In this document: positions 5,455-10,700 of the stretch, piece by piece
Layout of the letters: each line of letters opens with the position of its first letter
Numbering within the stretch: position 1 is the stretch's first letter
Assembly (NCBI RefSeq): GCF_900110485.1
Contig: NZ_FODY01000023.1
Coordinates: forward strand, 1 to 64,000
Direction: 5' to 3'
From: Propionispora vibrioides
GTDB lineage: Bacteria; Bacillota; Negativicutes; Propionisporales; Propionisporaceae
Length of the DNA: 64,000 nucleotides
Translations under genes and position numbers: made by a program
Notes under the pieces: model-generated
What the model saw: only the letters and a program-made list of their open reading frames with translations
The model's database searches: none
Told to the model about the DNA's origin: nothing

Positions 5455-5898
5455 TCAGCGGATGGTAATGGTTCTATTGTTGTCCGTTGCCGGCTCACGC
5501 TTCGGCAGCGTTACGGTCAGCACACCGTCTTTAAATTCGGCATCAATGGCCTCATCCCGGACGTTTTTAATATAAAAACTCCGGCTGTACTCTCCCTGGT
5601 GCCGCTCACGGCGTAAGTAATTTTCTTCCTGATCCGTCATTTCTTCCTGCCGTTTGGCGGAAATGGTCAGGTAATCGTTGGCAAACTGAATAGTAATATC
5701 TTCTCTTTTCATTCCCGGTAAGTCGGCACTGATAAGATAGGCATCCCGATTTTCCCGAAGGTCTACCCGGAAGCTGTTGCCTGCCGCCATAAAAGGAGCA
5801 AAGAAATCTTCCCGGAAGAATTGATCAAATAGGTGATTAAAAAAATCCTCCCTTGGTGCCATCTCATTCTTTCGGTTGAAAGGAACCAGATTAAACAT
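5455..5898 (-). CDS. Hsp20/alpha-crystallin small heat shock protein
   Basis: A 147-aa ATP-independent holdase that binds unfolding proteins in the cytoplasm. The alpha-crystallin domain spans about residues 42-138, with the conserved core YLISADLPGMKREDI and the downstream G-V-L-T-V element (DGVLTVTLPK). The C-terminal TITIR supplies the I-x-I motif used for oligomer assembly. The N-terminal region (LVPFNRKNEM) is typical of bacterial Hsp20. ATG has AAGGAG about 9 bases upstream. It is a single-gene unit with its own promoter, operator-like repeats and a strong terminator. Confidence 0.93.
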   Translation of the reverse strand: MFNLVPFNRKNEMAPREDFFNHLFDQFFREDFFAPFMAAGNSFRVDLRENRDAYLISADLPGMKREDITIQFANDYLTISAKRQEEMTDQEENYLRRERHQGEYSRSFYIKNVRDEAIDAEFKDGVLTVTLPKREPATDNNRTITIR

Positions 5899-6572: not shown

Positions 6573-6905
6573 ATGAATCATTTTGGCCACTCCTTAAAGA
6601 CTTTACGTAGCGAAAAAAAGATCAGCCAACGCAAACTGGCTGAACTGGTTGGTATTAATTACACCTACATCAGTAAAATTGAAAATGGAGCACAGGAACC
6701 GCCATCGGAAGATACAATTATTAAAATTGCCCGGGTTTTAGGCGAAGACGCTGATGAAATGCTGATCCAGGCTAATAAAATCCCCAGTTATTTTCAAAAA
6801 ATGATTACCGAAAACAAAGAAGTGTCTTCATTTTTGCGCAAAGCCGCCACTCTCTCGCCACAGCAATGGGACAGCATTCATCGCATATTGGATGAAAGTC
6901 TATAA
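6573..6905 (+). CDS. XRE-family transcriptional regulator
   Basis: A 110-aa protein with an HTH_3 (Cro/C1) domain at about residues 6-62: LKTLRSEKKISQRKLAELVG, then INYTYISKIENG as the recognition helix, and SEDTIIKIARVLG. The C-terminal ~45 residues (SYFQKMITENKEVSSFLRKA) are helical and may dimerise or sense a ligand; no known sensor domain is recognisable. GGGAGGG lies upstream of the ATG. The small membrane protein (6239) is divergent, and an orphan winged-helix gene follows at 7074. A role in local autoregulation is inferred from the dyad upstream. Confidence 0.85.
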   Translation: MNHFGHSLKTLRSEKKISQRKLAELVGINYTYISKIENGAQEPPSEDTIIKIARVLGEDADEMLIQANKIPSYFQKMITENKEVSSFLRKAATLSPQQWDSIHRILDESL

Positions 6906-7073
6906 AAATTTAAACACCCTGGCAATTTTTTAAGGAAATTACAATATAACCGTGATATACTCGCTAATAATCAACCAGGCAGACAGTAAACTATCTGCCT
7001 TTCTTTTCGGCTCTATTGTTGAGTTGATTATCAACACATTTTTATATTTATGTCCGGTGAGAAAGGAGCAACT

Positions 7074-7484
7074 ATGAATACTATGATTTATCCGGCCGAG
7101 TTACTTTCCAACCAGCAATTTTCCCATACTTTGCAGGATATATGGCCAACCGCCGCCGATGGAGATCTGTGGCTGTCGGACGATGGAACGGCCGATTTGC
7201 TGCAGACCTGCCAATTGCAGGATTACCAAATCTGTCTTGCCAAAAAATCGGTTCATTACCAAAATACCCTTATTTCGCTGGCACCGCAGGAATATGAATT
7301 AATTTGTCTGCTGGCAATGAACCGGGGCAGGGTATTTTCACGGGATCAATTGATCAGACATCTTTGGGGCAGCAATTATTATGGTTCAAAACGCACCGTG
7401 GACAACCTGATCTGGCGAATCCGCACCAAATTGCCGGCTTTACGGCTTGAAACAGTATATGGCTATGGCTACAGGGTTAGCTGA
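7074..7484 (+). CDS. Orphan OmpR/PhoB-type winged-helix protein without receiver
   Basis: A 136-aa protein. The last ~75 residues form a Trans_reg_C winged helix: LAPQEYELICLLAMNRGRVFS, then RDQLIRHLWG, then RTVDNLIWRIRTKL and the wing VYGYGYRV. The N-terminal ~55 residues show no receiver signature, so it cannot be a classical phosphorylated response regulator. ATG 7074 is preferred over 7050 because AAAGGAG lies 7 bases before it. Its DNA-binding domain closely resembles that of the response regulator at 7978, suggesting duplication. No histidine kinase is nearby. It is followed by a strong terminator. Confidence 0.8.
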   Translation: MNTMIYPAELLSNQQFSHTLQDIWPTAADGDLWLSDDGTADLLQTCQLQDYQICLAKKSVHYQNTLISLAPQEYELICLLAMNRGRVFSRDQLIRHLWGSNYYGSKRTVDNLIWRIRTKLPALRLETVYGYGYRVS

Positions 7485-7487
7485 AAG

Positions 7488-7525
7488 ATACCCGGTATGA
7501 TCGGCGGATCATACCGGGTATTTTC
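7488..7525 (+). terminator. Intrinsic terminator after the winged-helix gene
   Basis: Perfect 15-bp arms (7488-7502 and 7507-7521, ATACCCGGTATGATC and its complement) with a GGCG loop, followed by TTT-C-TT. It separates the 7074 gene from the next transcription unit. Confidence 0.85.
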
Positions 7526-7667
7526 TTCCTTATCTGTTTTATTTTACATACTTTTTCGGAAGTTATTCGTAAATCACTAGTTATAATGTACATGCTACCA
7601 TAATTCTACATTTTGTTTAAAAATTCCCTTAAACCTGACAAACAATTTCGCGAATGGTGTGACAACG

Positions 7668-7943
7668 ATGAAGCTGCTCTTTATTCTCTATGTTATATTC
7701 GAAGTTCTTTTTCATACGGAAGTCTGTCTTGCCTATCCCGAGACGCCCTCCGCCGTCCGTGCGGAGACCAAAACCGAATGGATTTACCTGCCACCTGTTG
7801 ATCAGGAGACGCCTGCCGTTTTCTCGCAGATACTTCTCACCCGCTACAACTCCTTACCACCCCGTCAGGTTTTAGCAAAACCATTAAACCGTTTTCTCCT
7901 GATCATTTCCAAAGACCCCTTTAAAATAGAACTACTGTTTTAA
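7668..7943 (+). CDS. Hypothetical small exported protein
   Basis: About 91 aa starting MKLLFILYVIFEVLFHTEVCLA, a plausible signal peptide with cleavage after CLA. The mature part is short and rich in Pro, Leu and Arg, with no recognised domain. The ribosome site (GGTGTG) is weak, and an upstream in-frame ATG at 7659 is equally possible. It lies 35 bases before a response-regulator gene in the same direction and may be co-transcribed. It could also be spurious; codon statistics or homologues would be needed to decide. Confidence 0.4.
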   Translation: MKLLFILYVIFEVLFHTEVCLAYPETPSAVRAETKTEWIYLPPVDQETPAVFSQILLTRYNSLPPRQVLAKPLNRFLLIISKDPFKIELLF

Positions 7944-7977
7944 TCCTGTTATATTAAAATTCAAGCAGAGGTGTCCT

Positions 7978-8649
7978 ATGGGCTATACAATTTACTTAAT
8001 CGGAAAAAAACCTGATTTAAACCGCATCCTGACTACGTACTTGCAGGCCTATGGCTGGGCTGTCAAAACATTTCAGGACTATGCCAATGCCTTGCAGCAT
8101 GTTGCCGACGGCCCTGATCTATGGATTACGGATATGCCACCCTCACCGCCGGAAACAGCCGACAGCCTCGTCCGGAAATTAAAATCTCATAACAACGCGA
8201 TACCGGTCATTTTTGTCTTTGACCTGAAAGTAACGCTGGAAAAGCTGTTTGAACTCAATACGGAATGCGATGATTATGTGGTCAAACCCTTCTCGCCGCT
8301 GGAGCTAATTATGCGAACCCAAAAACTGCTGCAAAGACATAAAACCGAAAAAGCACCGGATCGCCCCAAAAGCATCCAGGCCGGCGAATATGAGATTCAT
8401 ATTCTGGAGAGACAGGTGACCCGCCAGGGAAAATCCATCACCTTAACCACCAAAGAATTTGATCTTTTATATCTGCTGGCCGCCAATCCCCGCCGGACTT
8501 TCTCCAAAGAACAATTAATCCAGGGTATCTGGGCCGACCATTATTGTGTTTCCGATCGGGCCATCTATGACTTAATCAGCCGTGTGCGGGCCAAATTAAA
8601 GGCGCTTAAAATAAAAACCATCTACGGTTACGGCTATCGAATTCAATGA
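7978..8649 (+). CDS. OmpR-family response regulator with degenerate receiver
   Basis: 223 aa. The receiver-like domain (1-120) keeps Asp52 in WITDMPP and the Lys of DDYVVKPFSP (about residue 102). It lacks the acidic pair normally found after the first strand (here LIGKKPD) and the Ser/Thr after strand 4 (VIFVFDL), so normal Mg-dependent phosphorylation is doubtful. The C-terminal winged helix (LTTKEFDLLYLLAANPRRTFS, VYGYGYR-like wing IYGYGYRIQ) binds DNA. AGAGG precedes the ATG. The gene directly precedes a Spy/CpxP-like protein gene, an arrangement like cpxR/cpxP, without any histidine kinase in the window. Regulation of envelope genes is inferred. Confidence 0.85.
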   Translation: MGYTIYLIGKKPDLNRILTTYLQAYGWAVKTFQDYANALQHVADGPDLWITDMPPSPPETADSLVRKLKSHNNAIPVIFVFDLKVTLEKLFELNTECDDYVVKPFSPLELIMRTQKLLQRHKTEKAPDRPKSIQAGEYEIHILERQVTRQGKSITLTTKEFDLLYLLAANPRRTFSKEQLIQGIWADHYCVSDRAIYDLISRVRAKLKALKIKTIYGYGYRIQ

Positions 8650-8664
8650 AAGGAGATGCATCCT

Positions 8665-9261
8665 GTGTTCAGGAAACTTGCATTCATTTTATTTTTTCTG
8701 CTGACTTGTCAGGCAGCCGTTCTTCCCGTTTGTTCCGCCGCGATCAATACGGCTAAACTCTCTCAGGAGGCGGCCTGGATCAGCCTTGATCTTCCGTTAG
8801 AACAGCGTAAGCAGATCGATGCCATTATTGCCGATACGCTAAAAGAAGCCTCATTAAACGGTTCGCCTACTGTTAAAACTCTGGATTTTTCTCAAATGTA
8901 TGCGCTTTCCAGTTATCTGAACGAAGTCAGTGATATCCGGGAAACCATCAGCGACCGGATTATGCAGGTCCTGACACCGCAGCAGCGGCGCCAAATGCAG
9001 GCCCAACTGGATAAAAAGAAAAGCTACAACGATCAGACCACCGCTCTCTTAATGACCCTGAATCTTACCGACAAGCAGCAGCTACTCATCATTAATTCCC
9101 TGCTGCAGTGTCAGCGGCAGGCACTGGCTATCGTAGCCAATCAGAAACTTTCCTGGGAGGACAGGAGAAAAAAACTGGAAAAATCCAATCCGCTCCGCCT
9201 GGTCAGCCGTATATTAACGAAAGCACAGCTCACCGATATGACCATCTGGTCTAAAATGTAG
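8665..9261 (+). CDS. Spy/CpxP-like periplasmic protein (LTxxQ motif)
   Basis: About 198 aa, secreted: residues 1-26 (MFRKLAFILFFLLTCQAAVL..CSAA) form a signal peptide. The mature protein is almost wholly helical and contains VLTPQQRRQM, the LTxxQ signature of the Spy/CpxP chaperone family, and a similar LNLTDKQQ later. GTG 8665 is chosen because AAAGGAG abuts the in-frame ATG 8656 and lies 9 bases before the GTG. It starts 15 bases after the response-regulator stop, so translation is probably coupled. Likely role: periplasmic chaperone or stress sensor that feeds back on the adjacent regulator (inference from Cpx/Spy systems). Confidence 0.65.
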   Translation: MFRKLAFILFFLLTCQAAVLPVCSAAINTAKLSQEAAWISLDLPLEQRKQIDAIIADTLKEASLNGSPTVKTLDFSQMYALSSYLNEVSDIRETISDRIMQVLTPQQRRQMQAQLDKKKSYNDQTTALLMTLNLTDKQQLLIINSLLQCQRQALAIVANQKLSWEDRRKKLEKSNPLRLVSRILTKAQLTDMTIWSKM

Positions 9262-9309
9262 CAAGCTTTCTCTACACTATATAAATTTTAGAAACGATGA
9301 GGTGGTGCC

Positions 9310-10158
9310 ATGTTTCAAGATTACGCTTCACAGCAAACGCAAAAAATCCATCCGACGGCGGTGGTTTCCCCGGGGGCCATTCTGGAAGATCAGGTCGCCA
9401 TCGGCCCCTATGCCGTTATCGGCGACCATGTCACACTTGGCCAGGGCACTATCGTCGGCGCCCACGCCGTCATTGACGGTTGGACTGTCATCGGTAAAGA
9501 CTGTGTCATTTGCTCAGGAGCAGCCATTGGCGGCCAACCCCAGGACATAAAGTTCGCCGGTGAAAAAAGCTATGTAATAATCGGCGATCACACCCAAATA
9601 CACGAATTCGCGACAGTCAACCGGGCAACCGGCGAAAAGCAGGAAACACGCATCGGCAATCATTGCCTGCTCCTGGCTTATAGCCATGTTGCCCATAACT
9701 GCAGCCTCGGCAATCATGTCATCTTATCCAATGCCGTACATTTAGCCGGCCATGTTGAACTGGCTGACAGGGTAACCATCGGCGGCCTGTCGGGGGTGCA
9801 CCAATTCGTAAAAATCGGCCGCAATGCCATGATTGGCGGAGCCTCCAAAGTAGTGCAGGACATCCCTCCCTTTATCACGGTTGACGGCAATCCCGCCCAG
9901 CCGGCAGGACTTAATACTGTAGGAATAATTCGTGCCGGCATCAGCGAGGAAACGCGCCGGACATTAAAAAGAGCCTACAAAATCCTCTACCTGTCCGGTC
10001 TGCGCCTTCCTGAGGCCATCGCTACTATGGAAAACCTGCTGTCCCCCTCCCCGGAACTCACCGCTCTTATCCATTTTTTGCGTCATACCGAACGGGGAAT
10101 TTGCCGGGGCTCCGTTCAGCAGCGACAAAAACGCATCGCCAGTTCATCGATTGGCTAA
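9310..10158 (+). CDS. lpxA: Acyl-ACP--UDP-N-acetylglucosamine O-acyltransferase
   Basis: First enzyme of lipid A synthesis: moves a 3-hydroxyacyl chain from ACP to UDP-GlcNAc in the cytoplasm. 282 aa, against about 260 in E. coli. Left-handed beta-helix hexapeptide repeats run from residue 12 to about 190. The signature GGQPQDIKF (74-82) is present, and AYSHVAHNC (123-131) carries the catalytic His (His129, matching E. coli His125). HQFVKIG and the DIPPF..VDGNPA segment precede the C-terminal helical ACP-binding part. The last ~20 residues (RGSVQQRQKRIASS) are an extra basic tail. It stands outside an obvious lpx/fab cluster, among envelope genes, so it may be a second copy. GAGGTGG precedes the ATG. 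Confidence 0.93.
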   Translation: MFQDYASQQTQKIHPTAVVSPGAILEDQVAIGPYAVIGDHVTLGQGTIVGAHAVIDGWTVIGKDCVICSGAAIGGQPQDIKFAGEKSYVIIGDHTQIHEFATVNRATGEKQETRIGNHCLLLAYSHVAHNCSLGNHVILSNAVHLAGHVELADRVTIGGLSGVHQFVKIGRNAMIGGASKVVQDIPPFITVDGNPAQPAGLNTVGIIRAGISEETRRTLKRAYKILYLSGLRLPEAIATMENLLSPSPELTALIHFLRHTERGICRGSVQQRQKRIASSSIG

Positions 10159-10181
10159 ATACAATAACTATGGAGGTTCCT

Positions 10182-10700
10182 ATGAAAGCAAACAAGCTAT
10201 TCTTTGGATTTCTATTCACCTGTCTCACGCTTCCCGCAGCGGCGGTCCTGGCCGCACCGGTACCGGTCACCGATGATTTGAATGAGCTCAATTCAGCCTA
10301 TGGCGTTATGCTGGGCACAAACAGCAACCGCTACTATATAGAAAACAGGGTGTCCGATACGTTGATTCTGGGCCTGCAGTCCACTTCCTGGCAAAAGGGG
10401 ACTTCAACCACCGACCTGTTCGGACAGATTCAGGGGCTCGACGGGACCGATGTCCTCATCGGTATCCGGAATTTCGATTCCAAGACCAAGGGCTTTATTG
10501 GCATGACCAAAACAATGCCTACTTCCTTGGACTGGAACACTTATGTGACCGCCGTTGTAGGCAAAGAATTTCAGGAAGTCGAAGCCGGTGCCATTTACAC
10601 GGTAACCCAGGATACCGACATAAATCTCAGCTATAATTTGTACCGATATCACGGCAACCATAGCAGCGTGAATATCGGCCTTACCTATAAAGCCTGGTAA
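10182..10700 (+). CDS. Predicted outer-membrane beta-barrel protein
   Basis: 172 aa starting MKANKLFFGFLFTCLTLPAA with a signal peptide cleaved near VLAAP. The mature part alternates polar and hydrophobic residues in short strands (DTLILGLQSTSW, DVLIGIRNFD, NTYVTAVVGKEFQEVEAGAIYTV split over several strands) and ends with SVNIGLTYKAW, a terminal aromatic as in many outer-membrane barrels. No specific family recognised. ATG 10182 is set by TGGAGG 7 bases upstream; the open frame before it overlaps lpxA and is not used. It lies 23 bases downstream of lpxA, hence probably the same operon, and ends at a terminator. Confidence 0.7.
   Translation: MKANKLFFGFLFTCLTLPAAAVLAAPVPVTDDLNELNSAYGVMLGTNSNRYYIENRVSDTLILGLQSTSWQKGTSTTDLFGQIQGLDGTDVLIGIRNFDSKTKGFIGMTKTMPTSLDWNTYVTAVVGKEFQEVEAGAIYTVTQDTDINLSYNLYRYHGNHSSVNIGLTYKAW

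Follow-up and report, generated by a model that had tools for sequence, protein, structure and literature searches.

How is an envelope gene set governed when its response regulator (RR) lacks a linked kinase, and what does a gene for LpxA, the enzyme of the first step of lipid A synthesis, do in such a set? The question is raised by a stretch of 64,000 nucleotides (the window) on contig C23 (NZ_FODY01000023.1) of Propionispora vibrioides (genome G000, 4.43 Mb), in which an orphan winged-helix (wHTH) protein, an RR, a Spy-like protein, an LpxA and a barrel-like protein are encoded between positions 7074 and 10700. We find that the locus belongs to a recurrent Spy-LpxA2 envelope gene set of Gram-negative Firmicutes, which in Propionispora stands behind a degenerate RR. 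The most surprising part is the second LpxA (LpxA2), not the missing kinase. The features that carry this finding are as follows.

7074-7484, + strand: receiver-less wHTH protein of 136 amino acids (aa) with an OmpR/PhoB-type DNA-binding domain, paralog of the RR (PF00486 3.9e-20; no receiver match).
7485-7524, + strand: intrinsic terminator-like hairpin at the boundary of the wHTH gene and the RR operon (18-pair stem, 4-base loop, T tail).
7659-7943, + strand: small exported open reading frame (ORF), 94 aa, or 91 aa if the ATG at 7668 is the start; its N-terminus is signal-like, and a 104-aa counterpart occupies this slot in the congener G001.
7978-8649, + strand: atypical OmpR/PhoB-type RR with a pseudo-receiver (PF00486 4.6e-20; PF00072 29.2 bits; residue alignment; trees).
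8665-9261, + strand: Spy/LTXXQ-type periplasmic protein, from a GTG start that fits an AGGAG (ATG at 8656 possible; family profile; helical model).
9310-10158, + strand: LpxA2, a UDP-GlcNAc O-acyltransferase paralog (TIGR01852; own clade).
10182-10700, + strand: small exported beta-barrel protein of the outer membrane, with 10 strands in a predicted model (no family match).

The five genes named in a preliminary description of this DNA are all present at the positions given there, on the + strand. The gaps between RR and Spy (6 or 15 bases), Spy and LpxA (48) and LpxA and barrel (23) are short, so these four genes look like one transcript. The hairpin lies between the wHTH gene and the rest, so wHTH to barrel is probably not a single transcript, and that candidate was rejected on this ground; in the hairpin scan of the region, 4 such sites compare with 4.9 expected in shuffles, so terminators are not above the shuffled level. 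The small ORF has no family match in profile searches and is weakly conserved relative to its counterpart. Of the two congeners, Propionispora sp. 2/2-37 (G001) retains the entire gene order at ~60% identity, with saturated synonymous sites and far less change at the protein level (a comparison of pS with pN, the proportions of synonymous and nonsynonymous differences, only, for the cassette genes), which argues that the arrangement is not due to chance. The other congener (G002) has no Spy-like gene, no second LpxA and no RR of the clade to which the window RR belongs.

The window LpxA scores 325.6 bits against TIGR01852, above the cut-off of 231.05. A second lpxA, sought following the preliminary description, is indeed present: a canonical copy (LpxA1) lies on contig C4 at 216594-217352, beside what we take to be lpxC/fabZ- and lpxI-like genes. 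The 13 cassette copies cluster together, with support 100/100, in a tree of 39 LpxA rows, and LpxA2 is the faster-evolving form (62 invariant columns among 13 LpxA2 versus 133 among 22 LpxA1). LpxA2 of the window resembles canonical LpxA (E. coli 1lxa/2jf2) in its sequence family and its tested active-site residues, but belongs to this separate fast-evolving clade and stands outside the lpx operon. Judged by its sequence, the window LpxA is a paralog and not the housekeeping enzyme. The proposed tie between envelope control and lipid A therefore survives in part: LpxA does sit in a conserved cluster, but it is an accessory LpxA, so that the connection is not with lipid A synthesis as such.

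Seven positions were compared (Q73, D74, H122, H125, H144, H160 and Q161), which we take to be the active-site residues of LpxA, with H125 presumably the catalytic base. All seven are kept in 5 of the 13 LpxA2 proteins (the window copy, G001, G114, G042 and G338), and at least one is lost in the other 8, versus none of the 22 LpxA1. Three Sporomusa copies (G110, G334 and G336; loci L074, L142 and L143) carry H125P, with Q73/D74 altered too. The Sporomusa genes are nonetheless open and under purifying selection, with ratios of nonsynonymous to synonymous change (dN/dS) of 0.22 and 0.32 in two pairs versus 0.03 for LpxA1, and their products are likely pseudoenzymes.

The gene order claimed for this locus is found in full only in Propionispora, in one of its two congeners; what extends across Negativicutes is the Spy-LpxA2 core. 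The Spy-like family (profile A1) was detected in 18 of 380 Negativicutes genomes and a second strong LpxA in 16 of 300, a single LpxA being the rule (275 of 291 genomes with a strong match). Thirteen of the 300 genomes, from 8 genera, have both (G000, G001, G014, G020, G026, G037, G042, G055, G110, G114, G334, G336 and G338); they include Propionispora sp. 2/2-37, Lucifera butyrica, Anaerospora hongkongensis, two Pelosinus and two Sporomusa, and the two genes are neighbours in 13 of 13. A second LpxA alone occurs in 3 genomes and the Spy family alone in 5; Fisher's test on the co-occurrence gives 2.3e-16, a value that treats related genomes as independent, which they are not. A second LpxA without Spy is found in G048 (a relative of its own LpxA1), G333 (truncated, and not included among the tree rows) and G341, where two identical LpxA copies lie in tandem (C1 1851299-1853136). 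Spy without a second LpxA is found in G065, G068, G073, G332 and G106; G068, G073 and G332 have other gene sets, and G106 has a weak match next to an RR-histidine kinase (HK) pair. In G065 (L079), a Pelosinus relative, the cassette has decayed to an LpxA2 piece of 100 aa, a Spy piece of ~60 aa and a wHTH piece of 63 aa. There is also a second kind of cassette (L076, L078 and L148), in which a Spy-like gene is accompanied by one for a 145-156-aa protein and a barrel gene of the same family, with no LpxA2. Among the open papers searched, none was found that names a Spy-LpxA2 cassette in its title or the start of its abstract.

The Spy-like protein of the window has LT..Q at residues 106, 137 and 187, in keeping with its earlier description as a Spy/CpxP-like LTxxQ protein. 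By itself it gave no PF07813 match and an NCBIfam Spy E of 0.015; PF07813 is matched weakly by 7 of 12 family members (best E 9e-4), and the family profile finds E. coli Spy, not CpxP, as its top PDB match (1.9e-5). The predicted model is helical (predicted local distance difference test, pLDDT, 87.6; predicted TM-score, pTM, 0.81). A Foldseek search with it returned no E under 0.001, and VIA-align placed the N-terminal half nearest members of the Spy superfamily, Salmonella STV (Z 7.1) and CnrX (7.0), with Spy and CpxP at 5.6 and FadR-type helical proteins also at 5-6; for helical proteins, Z of 5-7 is weak alone. The profile match is thus the stronger evidence for kinship with Spy, and by analogy the protein may be a periplasmic chaperone. 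It was also considered as a lipoprotein, from a Cys at the end of the signal region, but this was rejected: visual inspection shows no lipobox, and the Lucifera protein does not have the Cys. The barrel protein, for which profile searches found no family, is modelled with 10 strands (pLDDT 88.7, pTM 0.81), and its model matches small barrels in Foldseek (KdgM, 1.9e-5; designed TMB10, 4.2e-5).

The RR consists of a receiver and a Trans_reg_C domain and has full-length matches to OmpR-family models. Trans_reg_C scores 71.9 bits, above its cut-off, and the receiver 29.2 bits against a cut-off of 30.2. An alignment with 44 other RRs bears out the reported lack of the acidic pair and of the Ser/Thr switch: G9/K10 replace the former and F81 the latter, with D52 and K103 kept. 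All five residues are kept in each of the 15 other OmpR-type RRs of the same genome in the alignment. An atypical RR, or pseudo-receiver protein, is defined in one source (PMC12632262) as lacking at least one of D, DD, T and K, and the window RR, with DD and T lost and D and K kept, falls under that definition. Its clade (10 RRs with support 100/99 in one tree, 11 with 100/100 in another) is atypical throughout, none of the 10 members examined having Asp at the second acidic position and two having Glu. The wHTH protein matches PF00486 only and has no receiver. A tree built on DNA-binding domains places it with the atypical clade (100/99), and it retains a DLWL.D stretch resembling the third receiver strand (DLWITD in the RR); it thus has the look of an RR whose receiver has been lost. 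Outright loss of this kind occurred twice within one DNA-binding-domain clade, in the window and in the hook operon of G001; there, on C10 (L200 5249-5596), a 115-aa receiver-less winged-helix protein is encoded directly before flgD/flgE/flgK-like genes, and it is missing at the matching place in G000.

Four further features lie outside the genes, one upstream of the wHTH gene and three before the first ORF of the RR operon.

7018-7035, strand not assigned: inverted repeat GTTGAGTTGATTATCAAC, a putative operator upstream of the wHTH gene, inside a 22-bp block (7014-7035) identical in G001.
7555-7576, + strand: 11-bp tandem direct repeat TTCGGAAGTTA-TTCGTAAATCA, a putative RR site in the operon promoter, overlapping a 27-bp block (7548-7574) identical in G001.
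7582-7587, + strand: -10-like TATAAT, 5 bp after the repeats and with no good -35, the TATAAT being present also in G001.
7598-7621, + strand: 24-bp block identical in the comparison of G000 with G001, downstream of the -10-like site and upstream of the first ORF.

The 27-bp block holds most of the tandem repeat, the last two bases of which differ in G001. Direct repeats of 11 bp are the kind bound by OmpR/PhoB proteins, and this one is a putative site for the RR. A 20-mer of the repeat has a single exact match in each of G000 and G001 and is absent from G002 within 3 mismatches, so that repeat and cassette are both missing from the cassette-less congener. The repeat was also considered as a wider regulon signal, and this was rejected: no second site with up to 3 mismatches was found in G000 or G001, where the reversed pattern, used as a control, had 1 and 3 hits by chance.

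Regulators of the same type accompany the cassette elsewhere. Of the 13 cassettes, 11 (6 of 8 genera) have an OmpR-type RR no more than ~3.2 kb from Spy-LpxA2, compared with ~3.5% expected by chance on our own estimate from 18 Trans_reg_C genes in 4.43 Mb. Outside Propionispora, 8 of 10 cassette RRs fall in a second flagellum-linked clade with the RRs on contig C6 of G000 and a flagellar RR of G012 (100/98), and the two of G042 fall just outside; identity between the C6 RRs and the cassette regulators of Lucifera, Sporomusa, Pelosinus and G014 is 54-64%. That the window RR is an ortholog of the regulators found with the cassette in other genera was rejected, since the two belong to separate clades (100/100 and 100/98). 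A true HK accompanies the cassette in Lucifera and G042, and a REC-HisKA-HATPase protein in G110 and G334 (the latter by blastp). For G014, G336, three Pelosinus and the two Propionispora, G001 included, blastp with four kinases of G000 detected no kinase in the stretches examined. The Pelosinus RRs have Asp replaced by Tyr and Thr by Ile/Leu. Since the degenerate RRs of Pelosinus and Propionispora belong to two clades and no kinase was detected with either, degenerate, kinase-less control of the cassette appears from the sequences to have arisen at least twice.

The relatives of the window RR and its wHTH paralog form a Negativicutes clade found mostly at flagellar hook operons (flagellar names here are read from N-terminal sequences, not from a family search). 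Clade members in G020, G033 and G106 adjoin hook and filament-cap type genes, those of G012 and G029 stand directly before flgD/flgE/flgK-like genes, and the flanks of that in G021 are not clearly flagellar. The order in G012 is canonical RR, HK, atypical RR, flgD. In G000, a flagellar cluster on C6 (145070-149567) opens with RR, HK, RR and flagellin, both RRs of its first part (145070-147984; L181 and L208) being canonical; no member of the atypical clade was found at the C6 hook operon.

From the observed genes, their order and kinship, the residue losses and the conserved site, we infer an envelope cassette with its own phosphorylation-independent, autoregulated regulator over a chaperone, an LpxA isoenzyme and a barrel, a reading we hold somewhat more probable than its negation. 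The Spy-like chaperone, LpxA2 and small barrel would form an accessory outer-membrane cassette of Sporomusa-type Negativicutes, which in Propionispora would be co-transcribed with the small exported protein and the regulator from the promoter-like site at 7555-7587. The pseudo-receiver RR may dimerise without phosphate, bind the two 11-bp repeats, which would stand in for a -35 region, and activate its own operon; its level, or some signal, perhaps envelope stress, would then determine how active it is, and not a linked kinase. The receiver-less paralog, on a separate transcript, might compete or co-operate at such sites. Chaperone and barrel would protect the periplasm and outer membrane, and LpxA2, if catalytic here, could alter lipid A at the first acylation step. 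Phosphorylation-independent control, as put forward in the preliminary description, is the best reading because no HK is linked (none of 27 HisKA matches in the genome falls on contig C23), the receiver is degenerate, and Spy and LpxA lie in a conserved cluster.

Several observations weigh against this reading, and some of them would fit ordinary two-component control. In that case the unlinked HK at G000:C6 145725-146999, a neighbour of two canonical RRs and of flagellin, would phosphorylate D52 in trans, tying the cassette to the state of the flagella or the envelope. D52 and K103 are retained, so that phosphorylation stays possible. Two close relatives of the window RR, in G012 and G029, directly follow a full-length HK, whose best match among the kinases of G000 compared is the C6 enzyme; the cassette kinases of G042 and Lucifera match it best as well, making it the best candidate, by sequence, for a cognate kinase. 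Yet the window RR is without the acidic pair (the Mg2+ site) and the Thr/Ser, the C6 kinase already has two RRs with all five residues, and the wHTH paralog lacks a receiver altogether; we consider control in trans unlikely, if the foremost of the alternatives. Other adverse points concern the site and the range of the model: the tandem repeat did not turn up at relatives' flagellar loci and could be a site for another factor, no RR was found in the 18 kb examined around the G020 and G114 cassettes, and, as the Sporomusa copies have lost the catalytic His, an isoenzyme role cannot hold for the entire LpxA2 clade. That loss, together with the decay in 8 of 13 copies and the purifying selection that persists, would suit a non-catalytic or hetero-trimerising modulator of LpxA1, through which the cassette tunes lipid A flux in place of providing an alternative acyltransferase. 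The window copy and four others, however, keep all tested residues and may catalyse, and we rank this account next, likewise as unlikely. A broader and more speculative version, which we place below both, is a lipid A rheostat: LpxA2 as a regulatory trimer partner of LpxA1 (catalytically dead in Sporomusa), co-expressed with chaperone and barrel, with regulators repeatedly drawn from a flagellum-linked set of RR, HK and atypical RR, which would coordinate the composition of the outer membrane with the assembly of flagella.

Two accounts remain. That LpxA2 is a spare duplicate in a chance neighbourhood, devoid of regulatory meaning, gains something from LpxA duplicates elsewhere, in G048, G333 and G341 and in Geobacter sulfurreducens (PMC3087551). 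The G048 and G341 copies, however, fall outside the cassette clade (the truncated G333 copy was left out), and that clade spans 8 genera with Spy always its neighbour, which makes the account very improbable. Least probable of all is the proposal that this is a true CpxR/CpxP module minus its kinase. An LTXXQ-type protein does adjoin an OmpR-family RR, but the NCBIfam CpxR model gives the RR 70.4 bits against a cut-off of 341 and ranks about 21st, behind the PhoB models (best, at 112-120 bits, and still under their own cut-offs), BaeR and many others. CpxR kinship is ruled out on these scores, and the Cpx-like label falls with it, given the Negativicutes clade to which the RR belongs and the match of the LTXXQ profile to Spy in place of CpxP. 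No HisKA kinase lies on the contig; the search did not extend to an unlinked CpxA-like kinase.

The resemblance to known systems is one of logic, not kinship. In enterobacteria, BaeSR and CpxAR govern spy regulons, which likewise pair an OmpR-family regulator with a Spy-type periplasmic chaperone; in the window, by contrast, there is no linked kinase, the receiver is degenerate, the regulator lies within the cluster, and an LpxA paralog and a barrel are added. HP1043 is reportedly an atypical OmpR/PhoB regulator with a degenerate receiver. ChxR is another such regulator; it is active without phosphorylation and binds direct repeats and sites in its own promoter (PMC3960148). The window RR differs from both in forming a separate Negativicutes lineage, keeping the Asp and having a receiver-less paralog beside it. 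Paralogous lipid A acyltransferases that serve under different conditions are described for Francisella (LpxD1/LpxD2) and E. coli (LpxP) (PMC4688374, PMC3087551); the paralog here is that of the first enzyme, and in Sporomusa it is without the catalytic His.

That an old second clade of LpxA is tied to a periplasmic chaperone, and that its active site has decayed in several lineages, suggests that lipid A in diderm Firmicutes is subject to a level of control not recognised so far, and the flagellar-locus link suggests a possible coupling of flagella and outer membrane. The regulators also form a natural series (canonical RR with HK, canonical RR alone, Asp-less RR, pseudo-receiver, receiver-less) that bears on how pseudo-receivers switch, which PMC12632262 describes as a mystery.

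Three neighbouring genes complete the picture. In G001, a YjbH-like protein (PF06082, 6.4e-13) is encoded 3' of the barrel (L063 6590-7219) and was not seen in the window. The first gene of the conserved block encodes a Cro/C1-type helix-turn-helix regulator:

6573-6905, + strand: Cro/C1-type regulator, 110 aa (HTH_3 3.4e-15; G001 counterpart 76.9% identical, in the same place).

Divergent from the block is an HSP20-type small heat-shock gene (5455-5898), which lies upstream in G001 as well (70% identity).

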